5,447 nucleotides of DNA. Origin: Streptosporangiaceae bacterium. Its GTDB lineage: Bacteria; Actinomycetota; Actinomycetes; Streptosporangiales; Streptosporangiaceae. Location: positions 1-5,447 of the forward strand of contig JASIBJ010000538.1 in assembly GCA_030045215.1 (NCBI GenBank), given 5' to 3'. How positions within the stretch are numbered: position 1 is the stretch's first letter; each line of letters opens with the position of its first letter. Positions 1 to 4,906 of this stretch are shown here, one piece after another. Made by a program: the position numbers and the translations under genes. The notes beneath the pieces were generated by a model. The model was given only the letters and a program-made list of their open reading frames with translations, was not told the DNA's origin and ran no database searches.

Positions 1-1120
1 CTACTTCGGCGACGGGCTAGTGCCCATCGAGCCGTCCTTCAGCAAGGTCGACCCCAGGCTGCCCGCGCTTGGGAACGGCACCGAGCAGTGGCAAGGCTTC
101 GTTCCCTTCAAGGACATGCCGCACAGCGTGAACCCTGCTCAGGGCTACCTCGACAACTGGAACACCAAGCCGTCGCAGTCGGCGTACTACCAGCAGAACG
201 AGGGCGACGAGTACTGGGGCACGATCTTCCGCTCCTCGCTCATCAGCACGATGGTCGCCGCCAGCCGGCACATCACCGTGCGTTACCTGGAAGGCATCGA
301 GCACGCCATCGGCACGATCGACAACCAGGACAACACCCGGCCCGCCGCTCCGTACTTCATCCCCTACCTGGTGGCGGCGTACGACCGGCTGCGGGCCGAG
401 CACAGCCCGCTCACGAGCCCGGCGACGCACCCGGATCTCGCTCGGGCGATCGCCGCGCTGAAGCACTGGAACGACGTCACCACGCTCGGCAGCCCGGCCA
501 TGTCCATCTTCATGAACTTCCTGGAGGCCTACGAGCGCAACGTGTTCGAGGGCGGTGTCTTCCCGGACGAGCAGTACACCGGGACCGTGAACTTCAGTGA
601 CGCGTCGCTGGGCCTGGGCACCTACGGCGGCCTCGGCGGGATGGGGACCTACAACTTGCTCTACCACATCCTGGCTCACACCAGCGGGCTCGATCCGTGC
701 GGGACGCTGTGCTATCACGGCAGCTACTTCGGGCTGCACCGCAATGAACTCCTGGTCGAGAGCCTCAACGATGCCATTACGATCCTGTCGGGCACGGGCA
801 CCCAGCTTGGCCAGGACGTGCCGGGCTTCGGCACGACTGACATCGCCAAGTGGGGCTACCAGCCGGCCCAGGACCAGGACTGGGACAGCCTCGATCCGCT
901 CGCGGTCGGGGTCACCACCCACTGCGGCACGAGCGCCAGCCAGAACCGGAGCACGTTCATGATGGCCGTCGACGTCGGTCCGCACGTGCTCATCGGGCGG
1001 GACGAGCTGCCGCCGGGCGAGAGCGGCTTCATCTCCGCGGCCGGCACGCCAAGCCCGCACTTCTGCGACCAGGTCAGGCTGTTCAACGACTTCAGGTACA
1101 AGGCCATGCCGCCATCCTGA
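1..1120 (+). CDS. Penicillin acylase family protein (Ntn hydrolase), C-terminal part, 5' end outside window
   Basis: This is the C-terminal 372 residues of a penicillin amidase/acylase family enzyme (peptidase family S45), which hydrolyses amide bonds of N-acylated substrates such as penicillins or acyl-homoserine lactones. The reading frame is open from base 2 with no stop. The GTG at 20 is therefore an internal codon, not a start. The signal peptide, alpha chain, spacer and catalytic N-terminal Ser of the beta chain lie upstream. Visible family marks, counted from the first full codon, are the W-Q-G-F segment (about 30-33) followed by NP-x-x-GY-x-x-NWN (about 44-54). This segment matches the region holding the oxyanion-hole Asn (beta-Asn241 of the E. 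coli enzyme). The C-terminal block PPGESGF...H-x-x-DQ-x-x-x-x-x-x-F is the classic family ending. Four Cys (about 233, 237, 308, 355) could form disulphides in an exported enzyme. The family is firm, but the substrate cannot be read from this half. The gene converges on the MFS gene 60 nt away. Confidence 0.93.
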   Translation, partial: YFGDGLVPIEPSFSKVDPRLPALGNGTEQWQGFVPFKDMPHSVNPAQGYLDNWNTKPSQSAYYQQNEGDEYWGTIFRSSLISTMVAASRHITVRYLEGIEHAIGTIDNQDNTRPAAPYFIPYLVAAYDRLRAEHSPLTSPATHPDLARAIAALKHWNDVTTLGSPAMSIFMNFLEAYERNVFEGGVFPDEQYTGTVNFSDASLGLGTYGGLGGMGTYNLLYHILAHTSGLDPCGTLCYHGSYFGLHRNELLVESLNDAITILSGTGTQLGQDVPGFGTTDIAKWGYQPAQDQDWDSLDPLAVGVTTHCGTSASQNRSTFMMAVDVGPHVLIGRDELPPGESGFISAAGTPSPHFCDQVRLFNDFRYKAMPPS

Positions 1121-1136
1121 CCGGGTCGGATGCCGA

Positions 1137-1167
1137 CGCGGGCCCGGCTGGCTCAGCCGGGCCCGCG
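1137..1167. terminator. GC-rich hairpin between convergent genes, probable bidirectional terminator
   Basis: A perfect 13-bp inverted repeat (arms 1137-1149 and 1155-1167) has a 5-nt GGCTC loop. It lies 16 nt past the acylase stop and 13 nt past the MFS stop on the other strand. There is no T-tract on either side, which is common for terminator-like hairpins in actinomycetes. Its position between two convergent stops fits a shared terminator. Termination itself is inferred. Confidence 0.75.
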
Positions 1168-1180
1168 CCTGAGTTCCCGG

Positions 1181-2536
1181 TCAGCTCTTCTGCTCCGGCC
1201 ACCGGGCCCGCCACAGCTCGCGCTTGGTGGAGCAGTACCCGACCCCGAGGGCCAGCACCGCCACCAGCACCAGCATGGCCGTCTGCGCGGGCAGCCACTG
1301 CAGCAGCACGCCGGTCCCGGCCATGCCGATCGGCACGCCGACGCTGATCAGCATCATCACGGCCGCGACAAGCCGGCCGCGCTGCTCGTCCGGCGCCTGG
1401 CGCAAGATGAGGACGTCCAGCAGGACCCGCAGCGACGGCACCCCGAGCATGCCGACGAACAGCAGGCCCGCGACCCACCACGGCCCGTACGGGACGGCCA
1501 GCAGGCCGAAGACCGGGATCCACAGGATTCCCATCCCCAGCAGCAAGATTCCCGGCTCCAGCCGGGAGTGCAGCACCTTCACCAGCGGCGCTCCGGCCAG
1601 CCCGCCCACCGCGCCGGCGCCGAGCGCCAGGCCGATCGTGGCCGAGGCGACGTGATGCTGGCGCAGGATGACGATGACCGCCAGGTCGAGCCCGGCGCCG
1701 GCCATGTTCGCGATCATGATCAGCAGCATCGTCGCGCGCAAGACCGGCGCGCGCCACAGCATGCGGATCCCCGCGAGCATGCCGGAGTCCGGCGGGCCGG
1801 CTGCGGGTGCGGACCCGGCGGCGGCGGATCCGGACGTGCCTGCCGCGGTCGCGGAGTAGCCGCCGGGCATCACCTTCATCGCGACCGCCGCCAGCATCGC
1901 GACCACGAACGCCAGTGCCGTGGCCAGGAACGGGATTGCGTGCGACAGCAGCCTGAGCCCGTAGAGCGCGCCGGCCACCGGCGGTCCGGCCAGCAACGCG
2001 CCGTTCTGCCGGACCTCGTCCTGAACCAGCGCCGAGGTCATCTGAGCCGGGGGCACCACCGACCGCACCAGCGGCAGCCGAGCAGCGCCGGAGACCGCAT
2101 TGCCGATGCCCAGCACGGCCGCGGCGACCAGCAGCAACGGCAAAGACAGCCAGCCGAGGATCAAGCCGGCCGCGACCGCGGCGGTCACGATCGCGCGGAC
2201 CGACTCGGCGACTATCACGAGCATCCGCCGGTCGTGCCGGTCCGCCAGTTGTCCGGCCGGCAGGGAACCGGCCAGGATTCCCATCGTCAGCACCGCGGCG
2301 AACAAGCCGGCGCGTGCTGGCGATCCGGTCAGCGTCAGGATCGCGAGCGGGTAGGCCACGTCCGCGACGCTGACCCCCAGCGACGAGGCGGCGCTGCCGA
2401 TCCACAGCGTCTGAAACTGGAGGTTCCGCCGCAGCGGAACGAGGCGCTCGCCCTGATCGCGAGTCTGCGCGCTGGCCTGGTGACCGGCTTGATCGCCGGA
2501 CTGGTCCGATCGAGACTCGACCGCTGGAGTAGTCAT
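1181..2536 (-). CDS. MFS transporter, EntS/MFS_3-like exporter
   Basis: This encodes a 451-residue, 12-helix-type major facilitator superfamily protein of the inner membrane. It is most like proton-driven exporters of the EntS/MFS_3 group, which pump out drugs or siderophores. The first helix starts near residue 44. The MFS motif A appears after helix 2 as G-x-LADR-x-DRR (95-104). A Gly/Ala/Ser/Pro-rich cytoplasmic loop (about 225-252) separates the two six-helix halves. The stretch RGRLVAAV...VP-x-G (386-403) is typical of the second half in this group. The N-terminal tail (1-40) is hydrophilic and rich in Gln and Asp. The ATG at 2536 is chosen because GAGGG lies 8 nt upstream of it. An in-frame TTG at 2551 would overlap that ribosome binding site and has none of its own. 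The gene is divergent from an ArsR-type regulator, with a shared palindrome between them, so regulator-controlled efflux is the likely role. The substrate is unknown. Confidence 0.9.
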   Translation of the reverse strand: MTTPAVESRSDQSGDQAGHQASAQTRDQGERLVPLRRNLQFQTLWIGSAASSLGVSVADVAYPLAILTLTGSPARAGLFAAVLTMGILAGSLPAGQLADRHDRRMLVIVAESVRAIVTAAVAAGLILGWLSLPLLLVAAAVLGIGNAVSGAARLPLVRSVVPPAQMTSALVQDEVRQNGALLAGPPVAGALYGLRLLSHAIPFLATALAFVVAMLAAVAMKVMPGGYSATAAGTSGSAAAGSAPAAGPPDSGMLAGIRMLWRAPVLRATMLLIMIANMAGAGLDLAVIVILRQHHVASATIGLALGAGAVGGLAGAPLVKVLHSRLEPGILLLGMGILWIPVFGLLAVPYGPWWVAGLLFVGMLGVPSLRVLLDVLILRQAPDEQRGRLVAAVMMLISVGVPIGMAGTGVLLQWLPAQTAMLVLVAVLALGVGYCSTKRELWRARWPEQKS

Positions 2537-2540
2537 TTGC

Positions 2541-2549
2541 TCGGCCCTC
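2541..2549 (-). promoter_or_regulatory. Ribosome binding site deciding the MFS start
   Basis: Read on the minus strand, TGAGGG followed by CCGAGCAA precedes the ATG at 2536. The GAGGG core is 8 nt from that ATG, a normal spacing. It makes the upstream TTG (2551), whose last bases belong to the same purine tract, an unlikely start. Confidence 0.65.
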
Positions 2550-2564
2550 AACGTTCTTGGTCAC

Positions 2565-2594
2565 GCCATCATTCACGTATACATGAATGATGGC
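2565..2594. promoter_or_regulatory. 30-bp palindromic operator in the divergent MFS/regulator control region
   Basis: This is a two-fold symmetric site of 30 bp. The outer arms GCCATCATTCA (2565-2575) and TGAATGATGGC (2584-2594) are perfect reverse complements. The centre is GTATAC (2577-2582), also self-complementary. Only the pair 2576/2583 (C/A) breaks the symmetry, so 14 of 15 pairs match. It is AT-rich against a very GC-rich background. It sits between the divergent exporter and winged-helix regulator genes and overlaps the first possible start codon of the regulator. A dimeric or double-dimeric repressor site is the natural reading, and the adjacent regulator is the obvious binder. Binding is inferred. 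Confidence 0.8.
2576..2583. promoter_or_regulatory. Overlapping divergent -10 elements inside the palindrome
   Basis: The symmetric core gives TATACA on the plus strand (2578-2583) and TATACG on the minus strand (2581-2576). Both are acceptable -10 hexamers. No convincing -35 hexamer is seen at 16-18 bp for either. On the minus strand transcription would begin near 2569, leaving a leader of about 33 nt that contains the GAGGG site of the MFS gene. On the plus strand it would begin near 2590. That would place the ATG at 2583 outside the transcript and favour a later start for the regulator. Confidence 0.4.
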
Positions 2595-3272
2595 AGTCGC
2601 GTGAGCATGTGGCAAGATGAAACTGTGGAAAACGAGCAGCGATCAGTCGGCGCGGCGGTGACCGCCGGCTCGGCCCCGGCCGAGGTGAAGACCGTCGACG
2701 ACGTAGAGAGCCTGCGCGCCATGGCTGATCCGACCAGGCTCGCGATCCTGGGCGTGCTCATGGATGGGCGCGAGGACCTGCCGGTGATGTCGGTGAAAGA
2801 GCTTGCCGCGCGCCTGGGCGAGCCCCAGACCAAGCTCTACCGGCACATGCGGCAGCTTGAGGCCGCGGGCCTGATCAAGGTGGCCGCCACGCGCATGGTG
2901 TCGGGCATCCTCGAGCAGCGTTACCAGGCGTGCCAACGGGACCTGCTGTTCGACGGCAGGTTCCTCCGCGCGCACGCGGATGACTCAGAACGGGCCGTGA
3001 CGGCCGTGCTCGACGGCTTCCGGCGCGGGTTCTTCGCGGCATTCAGGGACGAGCGGCTCGCTCCGGACGCCGTCCCGGAAGCAGAGGACTACCGCAAGCC
3101 GGCGATCTCCGCCTCCGAAATCCGGGTCAGCCCGGCCAGGGCGGCGGAGATAAAGACCAAACTCAAGGAGCTGATGGACTGGCTGGGGGGTCAGAAGACC
3201 GAGGACTCCGGCAGCATCCAGGTCGATATCATGATCGGGTACTACGCCGCCGGGCCGCCCGACCAAACCTGA
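2583..3272 (+). CDS. ArsR-type winged helix-turn-helix transcriptional regulator
   Basis: This encodes a regulator of up to 229 residues with an N-terminal winged helix-turn-helix of the ArsR/HTH_20 kind. The hallmark MADPTRLAIL segment is at 47-56, the helix-turn-helix at about 70-98 (VKELAARLGEPQTKLYRHMRQLEAAGLI), and a wing at about 99-115. The metal-binding Cys motif of classical ArsR/SmtB sensors is absent (only Cys117 is present), so a metal signal is unlikely. A charged C-terminal domain of about 110 residues, which I cannot assign, may bind a ligand or form the dimer. The start is uncertain. The longest frame begins at ATG 2583, inside the palindrome and with no ribosome binding site. 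GTG 2601, ATG 2607 and GTG 2625 are in frame, and all precede the conserved domain. Divergence from the MFS exporter suggests autorepression plus control of efflux. Confidence 0.87.
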   Translation: MNDGSRVSMWQDETVENEQRSVGAAVTAGSAPAEVKTVDDVESLRAMADPTRLAILGVLMDGREDLPVMSVKELAARLGEPQTKLYRHMRQLEAAGLIKVAATRMVSGILEQRYQACQRDLLFDGRFLRAHADDSERAVTAVLDGFRRGFFAAFRDERLAPDAVPEAEDYRKPAISASEIRVSPARAAEIKTKLKELMDWLGGQKTEDSGSIQVDIMIGYYAAGPPDQT

Positions 3273-3274
3273 GC

Positions 3275-3308
3275 CGGTGCCCCGGCGGCACTGGCCGCCG
3301 GGGCACCG
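3275..3308 (+). terminator. 15-bp stem-loop terminator after the regulator gene
   Basis: A perfect 15-bp inverted repeat (3275-3289 and 3294-3308) with a 4-nt ACTG loop begins 2 nt after the regulator's stop codon. No T-tract follows. Its position and strength fit a terminator that insulates the regulator from the downstream methyltransferase operon. It also rules out the in-frame ATG-less upstream start near 3277 for the methyltransferase. Confidence 0.75.
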
Positions 3309-3335
3309 TGCAGGTAATGGCGGCGGCGCGTGCTC

Positions 3336-3366
3336 TTGCGCAGACCGCGCGGTCCTGGCGTACGGT
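3336..3366 (+). promoter_or_regulatory. Candidate promoter of the methyltransferase operon, with a palindrome in its spacer
   Basis: TTGCGC (3336-3341) and TACGGT (3361-3366) resemble -35 and -10 hexamers of a housekeeping actinomycete promoter. The spacing is 19 bp, a little long. The predicted leader to the GTG at 3391 is short (about 17 nt) and holds the ribosome binding site. The spacer contains a perfect 12-bp palindrome, GACCGCGCGGTC (3343-3354). The promoter is tentative because such hexamers occur by chance. Confidence 0.4.
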
Positions 3367-3390
3367 GATTCCGGACCCCGAGGAGACGCC

Positions 3391-4125
3391 GTGCCGCTTC
3401 CCCCGCCCGACCGCCGGAACAGCTTCGCGCAGCGGCTGTTCGCCCCCCTCCCCGCTCGATACGACCGGCTGGCCGAGCTGCTCTCGTTCGGCCAGAACGG
3501 GCGCTGGCGCCACGCGATGGTCGGTCACCTCGCGCCGGGCGAGGGCCAGCTGATCCTGGACGTGGCCGCCGGCACGGCCGGCATCTCGCTGCAACTGGCC
3601 AGCCGGCTCGGAGCCCGAGTCGTCGGCGTGGACCTTACCGAGCAGATGCTGCGGCAGGGTGAGCAGAACATCGCCGCGGCCGGAGCCTCCGACCGCATCG
3701 CGCTGGTAGCCGGCCGGGCCGAGCAGCTCCCGTTTCCGGACGCCTCGTTCGACGCGCTGACCTTCAGCTACCTGCTGCGGTACGTGGCTGACCCGCAGGC
3801 GACGCTCGCCGAGCTTGCGCGCGTGGTGCGGCCGGGCGGGACGATCGCGAGCCTGGAGTTCCTGGAGCCCCCGAACCGGTTCTGGCGCTTCTGGTGGCGC
3901 GCGTACACGGCGACGCTGCTCCCGCTCGGCGGCCTGATGACCGGCGGACGAGAGTGGTTCAGGGTAGGCCGCTTCCTCGGCCCGAGCATCAGGGGTCACT
4001 ACCGCGCCTACCCGGTCAGCTGGACCGTCCAGGCCTGGCAGCGGGCCGGCGTGCGGGACGTCGGCTGGTCCGCGATGAGCCTCGGCGGCGGGCTCGTCAT
4101 GTGGGGAATCAGGGCGAGTGGCTGA
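3391..4125 (+). CDS. UbiE/MenG-like class I SAM-dependent methyltransferase
   Basis: This encodes a 244-residue methyltransferase of the UbiE/MenG (COQ5) type, enzymes that C-methylate the ring of prenylated quinones using S-adenosylmethionine. The GTG at 3391 is chosen because AGGAG lies 5 nt upstream. Longer in-frame extensions would run back into the terminator stem. Family marks are the N-terminal F-x-x-x-x-x-YD-x-x...SFGQNGRWR (17-40), SAM motif I LDVAAGTAG (56-64), acidic D81 ending strand 2 (VVGVD), LPFPDASFDALTFSYLLRYV (113-132), and RVVRPGG followed by LEFLEPPN (144-162), close to the UbiE signature RV-x-KPGG...LEF. The ending (about 176-200, LLPLGGLMTGG...SI) also follows the UbiE plan. 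The third residue after the GTAG of motif I and several flanking positions differ from housekeeping MenG, so it may be a specialised paralogue acting on another prenyl or polyketide ring. It overlaps the next gene by 8 nt, indicating an operon. Confidence 0.88.
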   Translation: MPLPPPDRRNSFAQRLFAPLPARYDRLAELLSFGQNGRWRHAMVGHLAPGEGQLILDVAAGTAGISLQLASRLGARVVGVDLTEQMLRQGEQNIAAAGASDRIALVAGRAEQLPFPDASFDALTFSYLLRYVADPQATLAELARVVRPGGTIASLEFLEPPNRFWRFWWRAYTATLLPLGGLMTGGREWFRVGRFLGPSIRGHYRAYPVSWTVQAWQRAGVRDVGWSAMSLGGGLVMWGIRASG

Positions 4126-4906
4126 GCCGCAGCCGGGCGCCATGCCTGGCCGGCCGGCCGCGGCAGCGACGGAGGCCGAGCTCGGGTCCCGGCCGGCCTA
4201 CTACGCTGCTGCTCCGGGCGGATGGCGCGACTGGTGGACCTTACTGCACCCGCCCTACACGGCGTGGCACCTCGCGTACGTGGTCATCGGCGCGTCGCTC
4301 GCGCCGCATGTCCGGCTGACTTCGCTGCTGGCCACGCTCGGCGCGTTCTTCCTCGCCGTCGGGCTGGCGGCGCACGCCCTCGATGAACTGCACGGGCGGC
4401 CGCTGCGCACGCGGATTCCCAGCGGGGTCCTGATTGCGACCGCCGGAGCGGCGCTGGCCGGGGCGGTCGCCCTGGGCGCGGCCGGCGTCGTGCGGGTCGG
4501 CTGGGCGCTCATCCCGTTCATGGTCGTGGGACCGTTTCTCGTCCTCGCCTACAACGCCGAGCTGTTTGGCGGGATCATGCACACCGACGCCGGGTTCGCG
4601 GCTGCCTGGGGAGCCTTTCCGCTGCTGACCGCGTACGTGGCCCAGACCGGAACGCTCTCGGCGGGATCGGTTCTGGCCGCGGGCGGTGCGTTCTGCCTGT
4701 CGGCAGCCCAGCGCAGCCTGAGCACCCCCGCGCGGATGCTGCGCCGCCGCACCTCGATCGTCACCGGCGGCATCACGCTGGCCGACGGCGATGTCATCAC
4801 CCTCGACAGCGCCCGGTTGCTGCAGCCGCTCGAACGCGCCCTGCGCTCGATGTCCTGGAGCATCGTCTTGCTGGCCGCCGGGCTCGCCGTGGCCAGGCTC
4901 GGTTAA
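4118..4906 (+). CDS. Polytopic membrane protein, divergent UbiA/MenA-like
   Basis: This encodes a 262-residue integral membrane protein with about seven hydrophobic segments (about 50-63, 68-86, 103-125, 128-146, 158-178, 183-198, 246-262). I do not recognise an established named family with certainty. The layout recalls UbiA prenyltransferases. HPPYTAWHLAYVVIGASLAP (44-63) resembles their first helix. ALDELHGRPLRTRIPSG (87-103) sits where the first Asp-rich motif and the R-PL-x-SG segment fall. The run from AYN through GAFPLLTAYVAQTGTLS (144-181) resembles the MenA segment ending in YVQTG-x-LS. The second Asp-rich Mg-binding motif is not seen: the matching region reads AAQRSLSTPARMLRRR (196-211). 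The start is GTG 4118, overlapping the methyltransferase stop by 8 nt and suggesting translational coupling. ATG 4142 is an alternative start but has no clear ribosome binding site. If it is a real prenyltransferase relative, it and the methyltransferase would act on the same lipid. This is inference. Confidence 0.75.
   Translation: MAEPQPGAMPGRPAAAATEAELGSRPAYYAAAPGGWRDWWTLLHPPYTAWHLAYVVIGASLAPHVRLTSLLATLGAFFLAVGLAAHALDELHGRPLRTRIPSGVLIATAGAALAGAVALGAAGVVRVGWALIPFMVVGPFLVLAYNAELFGGIMHTDAGFAAAWGAFPLLTAYVAQTGTLSAGSVLAAGGAFCLSAAQRSLSTPARMLRRRTSIVTGGITLADGDVITLDSARLLQPLERALRSMSWSIVLLAAGLAVARLG

Follow-up and report, generated by a model that had tools for sequence, protein, structure and literature searches.

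Divergent gene pairs of a repressor and an exporter are best known from TetR and tetA, where the two genes are separated by a short gap and palindromic operator DNA serves both promoters, as described in the accessible part of PMC3511530. In actinobacteria, a comparable arrangement is offered by RifQ of Amycolatopsis mediterranei, which represses the exporter RifP. The sequence protected by RifQ contains an inverted repeat, and repression is relieved by the exported compound (accessible part of PMC5787919). Here, we describe a locus of similar layout in which both the regulator and the candidate operator are of another kind. TetR acts through two 15-bp operators, whereas the present locus has a winged-helix regulator of the HTH_20/ArsR-like type and a single 26-bp dyad whose arms are far apart. 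RifQ also belongs to the TetR family, and its ligand is rifamycin B; the regulator described here is of a different family, and no ligand is indicated.

With the ArsR/SmtB metalloregulators, the regulator shares the winged helix and matches to both the HTH_5 and HTH_20 profiles. However, it is ~215 residues long, compared to roughly 90–125 residues for the solved ArsR/SmtB chains listed. The nearest solved folds are PH1932 of Pyrococcus horikoshii (1uly, 2cwe) and Kfla_6221 of Kribbella flavida (4g6q). Their identity to the regulator is 18–21% over the alignment, the TM-score is ~0.4 on the query, and the titles of these entries name no operator or exporter partner.

Results

Gene pair, palindrome, and regulator protein

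The window, i.e., the whole stretch of DNA analyzed (5,447 nucleotides of contig JASIBJ010000538.1 from a Streptosporangiaceae bacterium), contains the near-perfect 30-bp palindrome GCCATCATTCACGTATACATGAATGATGGC at positions 2565–2594 (no strand assigned). The initial annotation counted 14 complementary pairs out of 15, and our recount agreed, with C2576/A2583 as the sole unpaired position. The site was also correctly described as AT-rich within GC-rich DNA (43% GC, compared to 71% for the window) and as lying between divergent genes for an MFS protein and a winged-helix protein, because matches to PF07690 and PF12840 flank the palindrome.

The MFS exporter gene is located on the minus strand (1181–2536). 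Its ATG at 2536 is preceded by GAGGG, and its product matches PF07690 with 87.1 bits and PF05977 with 47.2 bits. The regulator gene is located on the plus strand (2625–3272). Its product scored 52.9 bits against PF12840 (HTH_20), above the gathering score of 27, which places it in this family, and 30.4 bits against PF01022 (HTH_5). The regulator has three in-frame start options, namely ATG 2583 (within the dyad), ATG 2607, and GTG 2625. GTG 2625 is the probable one, as it aligns with the ATG starts of several relatives, e.g., MEDQQRS (P0010) and MEQPLAE (P0088). The two ATGs upstream of it (2583 and 2607) could also serve, with lower likelihood. With the chosen starts, the gap between the genes is 88 bp, so that the divergent PF12840 and PF07690 genes lie less than 200 bp apart, and the dyad is separated from the two starts by 28 and 30 bp.

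Two GC-rich inverted repeats border the gene pair. One (1137–1167) lies between the convergent ends of an acylase gene and the MFS gene, and the other (3277–3306) just past the stop codon of the regulator. These repeats are possible transcription ends, in which case each gene would form a single unit; neither of them was called a terminator by the scan of 1000–3500. Further downstream (4118–4903), directly after a UbiE/MenG-like methyltransferase gene, the window encodes a hydrophobic-looking protein of 262 residues without a Pfam or NCBIfam match. Homologues of this protein with 50–65% identity were present in 8 of the 394 genomes of the class sample.

The AlphaFold2 model of the regulator (mean pLDDT 84.3, pTM 0.73) consists of a disordered start, an N-terminal winged helix, and a C-terminal helical region. 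The closest solved structures were 1uly by sequence (E 9.5e-07), and 4g6q and 1uly by fold (E ~1e-6). With a modest pTM and TM-scores of ~0.4, the model does not warrant a docking argument. A TetR HTH profile was absent among the Pfam matches of the regulator at E up to 0.001. The score against the NCBIfam metalloregulator model NF033788 (41.1 bits) was below the cut-off of 55 bits, and an invariant cysteine was absent among 37 or 50 aligned relatives. A site built from Asp, His, or Glu would still be compatible with these alignments. Together, the missing cysteine and the low metalloregulator score make a metal ligand unlikely, and induction by metal is likewise unlikely.

Conservation of the dyad with the gene pair

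In a pattern-first scan of genome contigs, the exact sequence CATCATTCA-N8-TGAATGATG was found at 21 loci. Three of these were actinobacterial (Catenulispora rubra, Streptomyces MJM8645, and Streptomyces FH025), and in all three the window regulator (40–47% identity in the best local alignments) and an MFS protein were matched on either side of the site. At the other 18 loci, the surrounding DNA that was retrieved matched neither protein at E up to 1e-3.

A protein-first comparison was carried out in the family to which the Catenulispora genome belongs, where 13 of 14 genomes had a regulator ortholog at E<1e-20 and the 14th a match at E 1e-4 only. In these 13 genomes, the dyad was always present between the regulator and a divergent MFS gene, with 0–3 mismatches out of 18. 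Many of these loci are closely related and hence do not represent 13 independent events. When the order sample (293 genomes) was queried with a Streptomyces regulator at E up to 1e-15, the regulator was found in 17 genomes, i.e., the same 13 and G002, G497, G543, and G546. According to the initial annotation, the idea would fail if relatives with the same gene pair had lost the dyad. Such loss was not observed, as the dyad was kept in 13/13 family pairs and, including those, at the same place in 17/17 pairs of the order sample, 15 of them with 0–3 mismatches. The G497 dyad has 5 mismatches out of 18, one of them among the 12 core bases. The G543 dyad has 6 mismatches, two of them among the 12 core bases; it is weak and was counted by its position, as the pattern by itself would not identify it.

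Plasmid records gave two matches. In the Streptomyces plasmid (L121), the gene pair is accompanied by a weaker dyad with 4 mismatches, and in the Chloroflexota plasmid (L122) the dyad is absent. No match was found in phage records. In a class sample of 296 genomes, the regulator matched in 4 genomes at E<1e-20 and in 138 at E up to 1e-3, which shows that close orthologs are uncommon in the class. Closer relatives of the window as DNA were sought at E up to 1e-12 in two groups chosen via the 262-residue membrane protein, and were found in 0/35 genomes of the family of G193 (its order comprises the same 35 genomes) and in 0/3 genomes of the order of G077.

The order-wide pattern search was positive in 37 of 293 genomes, of which 12 represent regulator/MFS loci. 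Judged by sequence, 22 of the remaining 25 share another Streptomyces palindrome, and 3 resemble single chance matches. DNA was retrieved for 18 of these 25, and none of the 18 matched the regulator or MFS protein at E up to 1e-5. As a control, the reversed pattern gave matches in 3 of the 293 genomes. The other Streptomyces palindrome, CATTATTCATCACATGATGAATAATG and its close variants, occurs in L068 (1501–1526) and in 21 other genomes (22/293 sampled). At the one locus inspected, L068, a methyltransferase-like gene is followed by an ABC-transporter-like ATPase gene, and the palindrome coincides with the start of the latter; functions were assigned by eye. This palindrome is probably the operator of another regulator.

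For a comparison in register, we assembled a set of 20 loci, from which repeats of loci were left uncounted (L022–L024, L028, L086–L089, L091–L096, L123, and L127–L139). The 16 distinct 26-mers in this set define the candidate site of the HTH_20 regulator as CATCATTCAC-N6-(G/A)TGAATGATG, at 2567–2592 of the window (no strand assigned). The 30-bp palindrome proposed initially is real, but only these 26 bp are conserved.

Predicted promoters and the direction of control

The only sigma-70-like site called by the scan in 2450–2750 (0.0 expected in shuffles) and in 1000–3500 (0.1 expected) was TTGCCA-N17-CATCAT on the minus strand. The predicted exporter -35 element, TTGCCA (2610–2615, minus strand), coincides with the block TGGCAAGA. 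The predicted exporter -10 element, CATCAT (2587–2592, minus strand), lies 17 bp away in the right arm of the dyad, and exporter transcription would start near 2580. Since the arm itself supplies CATCAT, this -10 element is not independent evidence. For the regulator, a predicted -10 element, CAAGAT (2613–2618, plus strand), begins 12 bp ahead of GTG 2625, which suggests a leaderless transcript. It lacks the first T of the TANNNT consensus. A weak -35 element, ATGGCA (2590–2595, plus strand), may be present at the right-hand edge of the dyad, with 7/12 consensus bases when combined with its -10, and in several loci rival plus-strand matches equal or beat this -35.

The overlap of the site with both promoters is thus a consensus prediction, in which the exporter promoter matches 9/12 bases in 11 of the 17 loci scanned (5–7 of 12 in the other 6) and the regulator -35 is weak. 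The block TGGCAAGA is found at a constant distance from the dyad in 12/20 loci and is missing in 8/20. In each of the 12 loci that have it, CAAGAT is followed by 6–7 nt and the start codon. This position and this spacing would allow the block a double role, as -35 for the exporter and, on the opposite strand, as -10 for the regulator. In G306, G307, and G309, which belong to the same family, the block is absent, but TATCAT or TAACAT is located 6–7 nt before the start codon.

These comparisons divide the interpretation given in the initial annotation. Its shared operator for the exporter/regulator pair is supported by the dyad being kept in all 17 order-sample pairs. In contrast, its proposal that the GTATAC core acts as -10 on both strands was rejected, because the six core bases vary across the 20 loci compared as DNA and GTATAC occurs only in the window. 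A GTATAC-like sequence is nevertheless suggested for some closer relatives by their protein N-termini, which are over-extended. TTGCCA-N17-CATCAT with the overlapping CAAGAT is the better-conserved, still unproven, promoter model.

On this layout, one regulator dimer (or two) would occupy the two arms. The bound regulator would cover the exporter -10 and start site, together with the -35 edge of the overlapping regulator promoter on the opposite strand, so that the exporter would be repressed and synthesis of the regulator itself damped. Release would be brought about by a small molecule, probably a substrate of the exporter. A regulator bound to the same dyad might instead activate the exporter, as the dyad sits between both genes and some divergent regulators, such as AtrA, are activators (accessible part of PMC3511530). 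We consider this very improbable, because the dyad contains both the -10 and the start predicted for the exporter, which suits repression, and because all five TetR-family regulators that were tested and located <200 bp from a divergent gene repressed that gene, according to the accessible part of the same source.

Link between the site and the regulator family

In another order, 3 of 13 genomes have related regulators (36–39% identity), and no MFS match was present in the fetched DNA beside these three. All three have an exact CATTCA-N8-TGAATG upstream (L027 1236–1261, L029 2263–2288, and L030 2248–2273), which differs from the full pattern by 5 mismatches; the association was recognized in retrospect. 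In L027 and L030, the site precedes a short ORF (~70 codons by eye), which is itself upstream of the regulator. Among 46 loci with weaker HTH matches, there were no full patterns at ≤4 mismatches and no 12-base cores at ≤1 mismatch.

Closer relatives of the regulator, with up to 79% identity, are represented by protein sequences only. The over-extended N-termini of some of them, e.g., LPLNVLGYAIIHIYVNDGISVSMWQDG, fit the translation of a kept ATCATTCAC-N6-GTGAATGAT. Among the 120 protein relatives listed, 7 have such an N-terminus, e.g., IHVYVND, which corresponds to translation across a kept dyad. They were counted with a simple search expression that spans the entire dyad and overlooks variants such as VHVYVND. 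Four of the 120 (P0039, P0054, P0057, and P0062) read IIY instead of IIH, which corresponds to a changed left-arm base, and the N-terminus of P0094 is incompatible with a kept left arm. Most other N-termini among those listed begin too late to be judged.

The dyad could also be the operator of another, possibly global, regulator that acts at the same promoter. However, the exact site occurs only once in each of the genomes of Catenulispora rubra, Streptomyces MJM8645, and Streptomyces FH025, so that no regulon is visible in these three pair-carrying genomes. Two of them have one further site with 3 mismatches, which is at background level, as one of these genomes also has a single match to the reversed control pattern. 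Moreover, the core is found upstream of the three related regulators that lack an MFS match. Control by a different protein is therefore very unlikely. The assignment of the dyad to its neighboring regulator is well supported, because the dyad is conserved with the gene pair and CATTCA-N8-TGAATG lies upstream of the three distant regulators.

Anatomy of the conserved site

The arms accompany the regulator and the divergent MFS gene across several lineages, while the center and the flanks vary. In the 20 loci aligned in register, the mean pairwise identity was 0.90 in the arms (positions 2–10 and 17–25), compared to 0.62 in the core (11–16), 0.42 in the left flank, and 0.56 (27–43), 0.55 (44–52), and 0.39 (53–80) on the right. 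With ten representatives, picked by eye as one per cluster, the values were 0.88 for the arms, 0.55 for the core, 0.39 for the left flank, and 0.46, 0.45, and 0.33 for the right flanks. The ATTCA/TGAAT pairs are standard in 18–20 of the 20 loci. The outer pairs of the left arm turn to A-G, C-A, or T-G in several loci, and of the 20 loci, 14 keep a match at pair 1, 13 at pair 3, and 15 at pair 4. The two pairs of the 30-bp palindrome that lie outside the 26 bp match in 6 and 8 of 17 loci, where ~5 are expected from base composition.

A third half-site, CATTCA, is present ~20 bp upstream of the left-arm CATTCA in 9 of 13 loci of the Catenulispora family (L001, L060, L061, L062, L064, L065, L066, L085, and L090) and absent in the window. 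It could hold an extra regulator dimer. We also considered a conserved leader peptide, MNDxxxVSxWQD, which can be read from the dyad in one frame common to the window and Catenulispora. We did not adopt it as the main reading, since the frame of this block in Catenulispora differs from that of the regulator, while the DNA TGGCAAGAT is kept.

As an inverted repeat, the dyad could in principle fold as RNA and form a leader hairpin or a terminator rather than a protein site. The frequent, uncompensated changes in the outer left arm argue for recognition as DNA and not for RNA pairing. In addition, no Rfam match was obtained in 2400–2750 at E up to 0.1, no terminator-like site was found in 2450–2750, and the predicted exporter start falls within the dyad. 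An RNA hairpin was rejected on the uncompensated changes and the absence of an Rfam match, and any RNA role of the dyad is highly improbable.

The site scored highest among all 30-bp palindromes in the window. The analytic expectation for a palindrome with 14/15 pairs is 0.002 per window, and only 1 of 400 first-order Markov sequences of window length attained this value. The initial statement that such a palindrome is not expected by chance thus holds for the window but not at the genome scale, where the same per-position figure gives ~3 chance palindromes of this quality per 8-Mb genome. Symmetry alone is therefore not decisive, and position and conservation have to decide. An origin by chance, which those ~3 palindromes would allow, is already contradicted by sequence conservation, with the dyad kept between the same two genes in 17/17 orthologous pairs (one weak) and the arms better conserved than the flanks, and its probability is negligible.

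Discussion

Taken together, the comparisons suggest that the dyad is very likely the operator of the neighboring HTH_20/ArsR-like regulator, shared by the exporter/regulator pair. Judged from the sequence, binding of the dyad by this regulator can be expected with great confidence. Repression of the exporter is also highly probable, and repression of the regulator gene by its own product is likely. Induction by a small molecule is reasonably plausible.

A more speculative extension, which we regard as doubtful, is that the two promoters are superimposed, with the -35 of each overlapping the -10 of the other (2590–2595 with 2587–2592, and 2610–2615 with 2613–2618). Such an arrangement might admit only one RNA polymerase at a time, while the operator would cover one end and the regulator mRNA would be leaderless. 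The locus would then act as a compact toggle, with repressor and polymerases contending for a few shared turns of DNA, and its regulator might represent an undescribed HTH_20 family with an ATTCA-N8-TGAAT code that is legible from sequence.

The general design of the switch is well known. By analogy, the switch would work like TetR/tetA and RifQ/RifP, in another protein family and with another operator sequence and spacing. The regulator family seems little studied. Our literature search, which covered titles and abstract openings and few subscription journals, did not find the operator or the regulator described among the papers listed, and searches by the motif or by the theme of ArsR plus exporter gave nothing relevant among the matches listed.

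The sequence comparisons would assign an operator, ATTCAC-N6-GTGAAT, to a regulator type of actinobacteria, the HTH_20/ArsR-like proteins of ~215 residues. In the database, 1106 proteins match the regulator at E up to 0.001, not necessarily all of the same type. Such an assignment would permit the prediction of targets from sequence and may provide a handle for finding what MFS pumps of this kind export.
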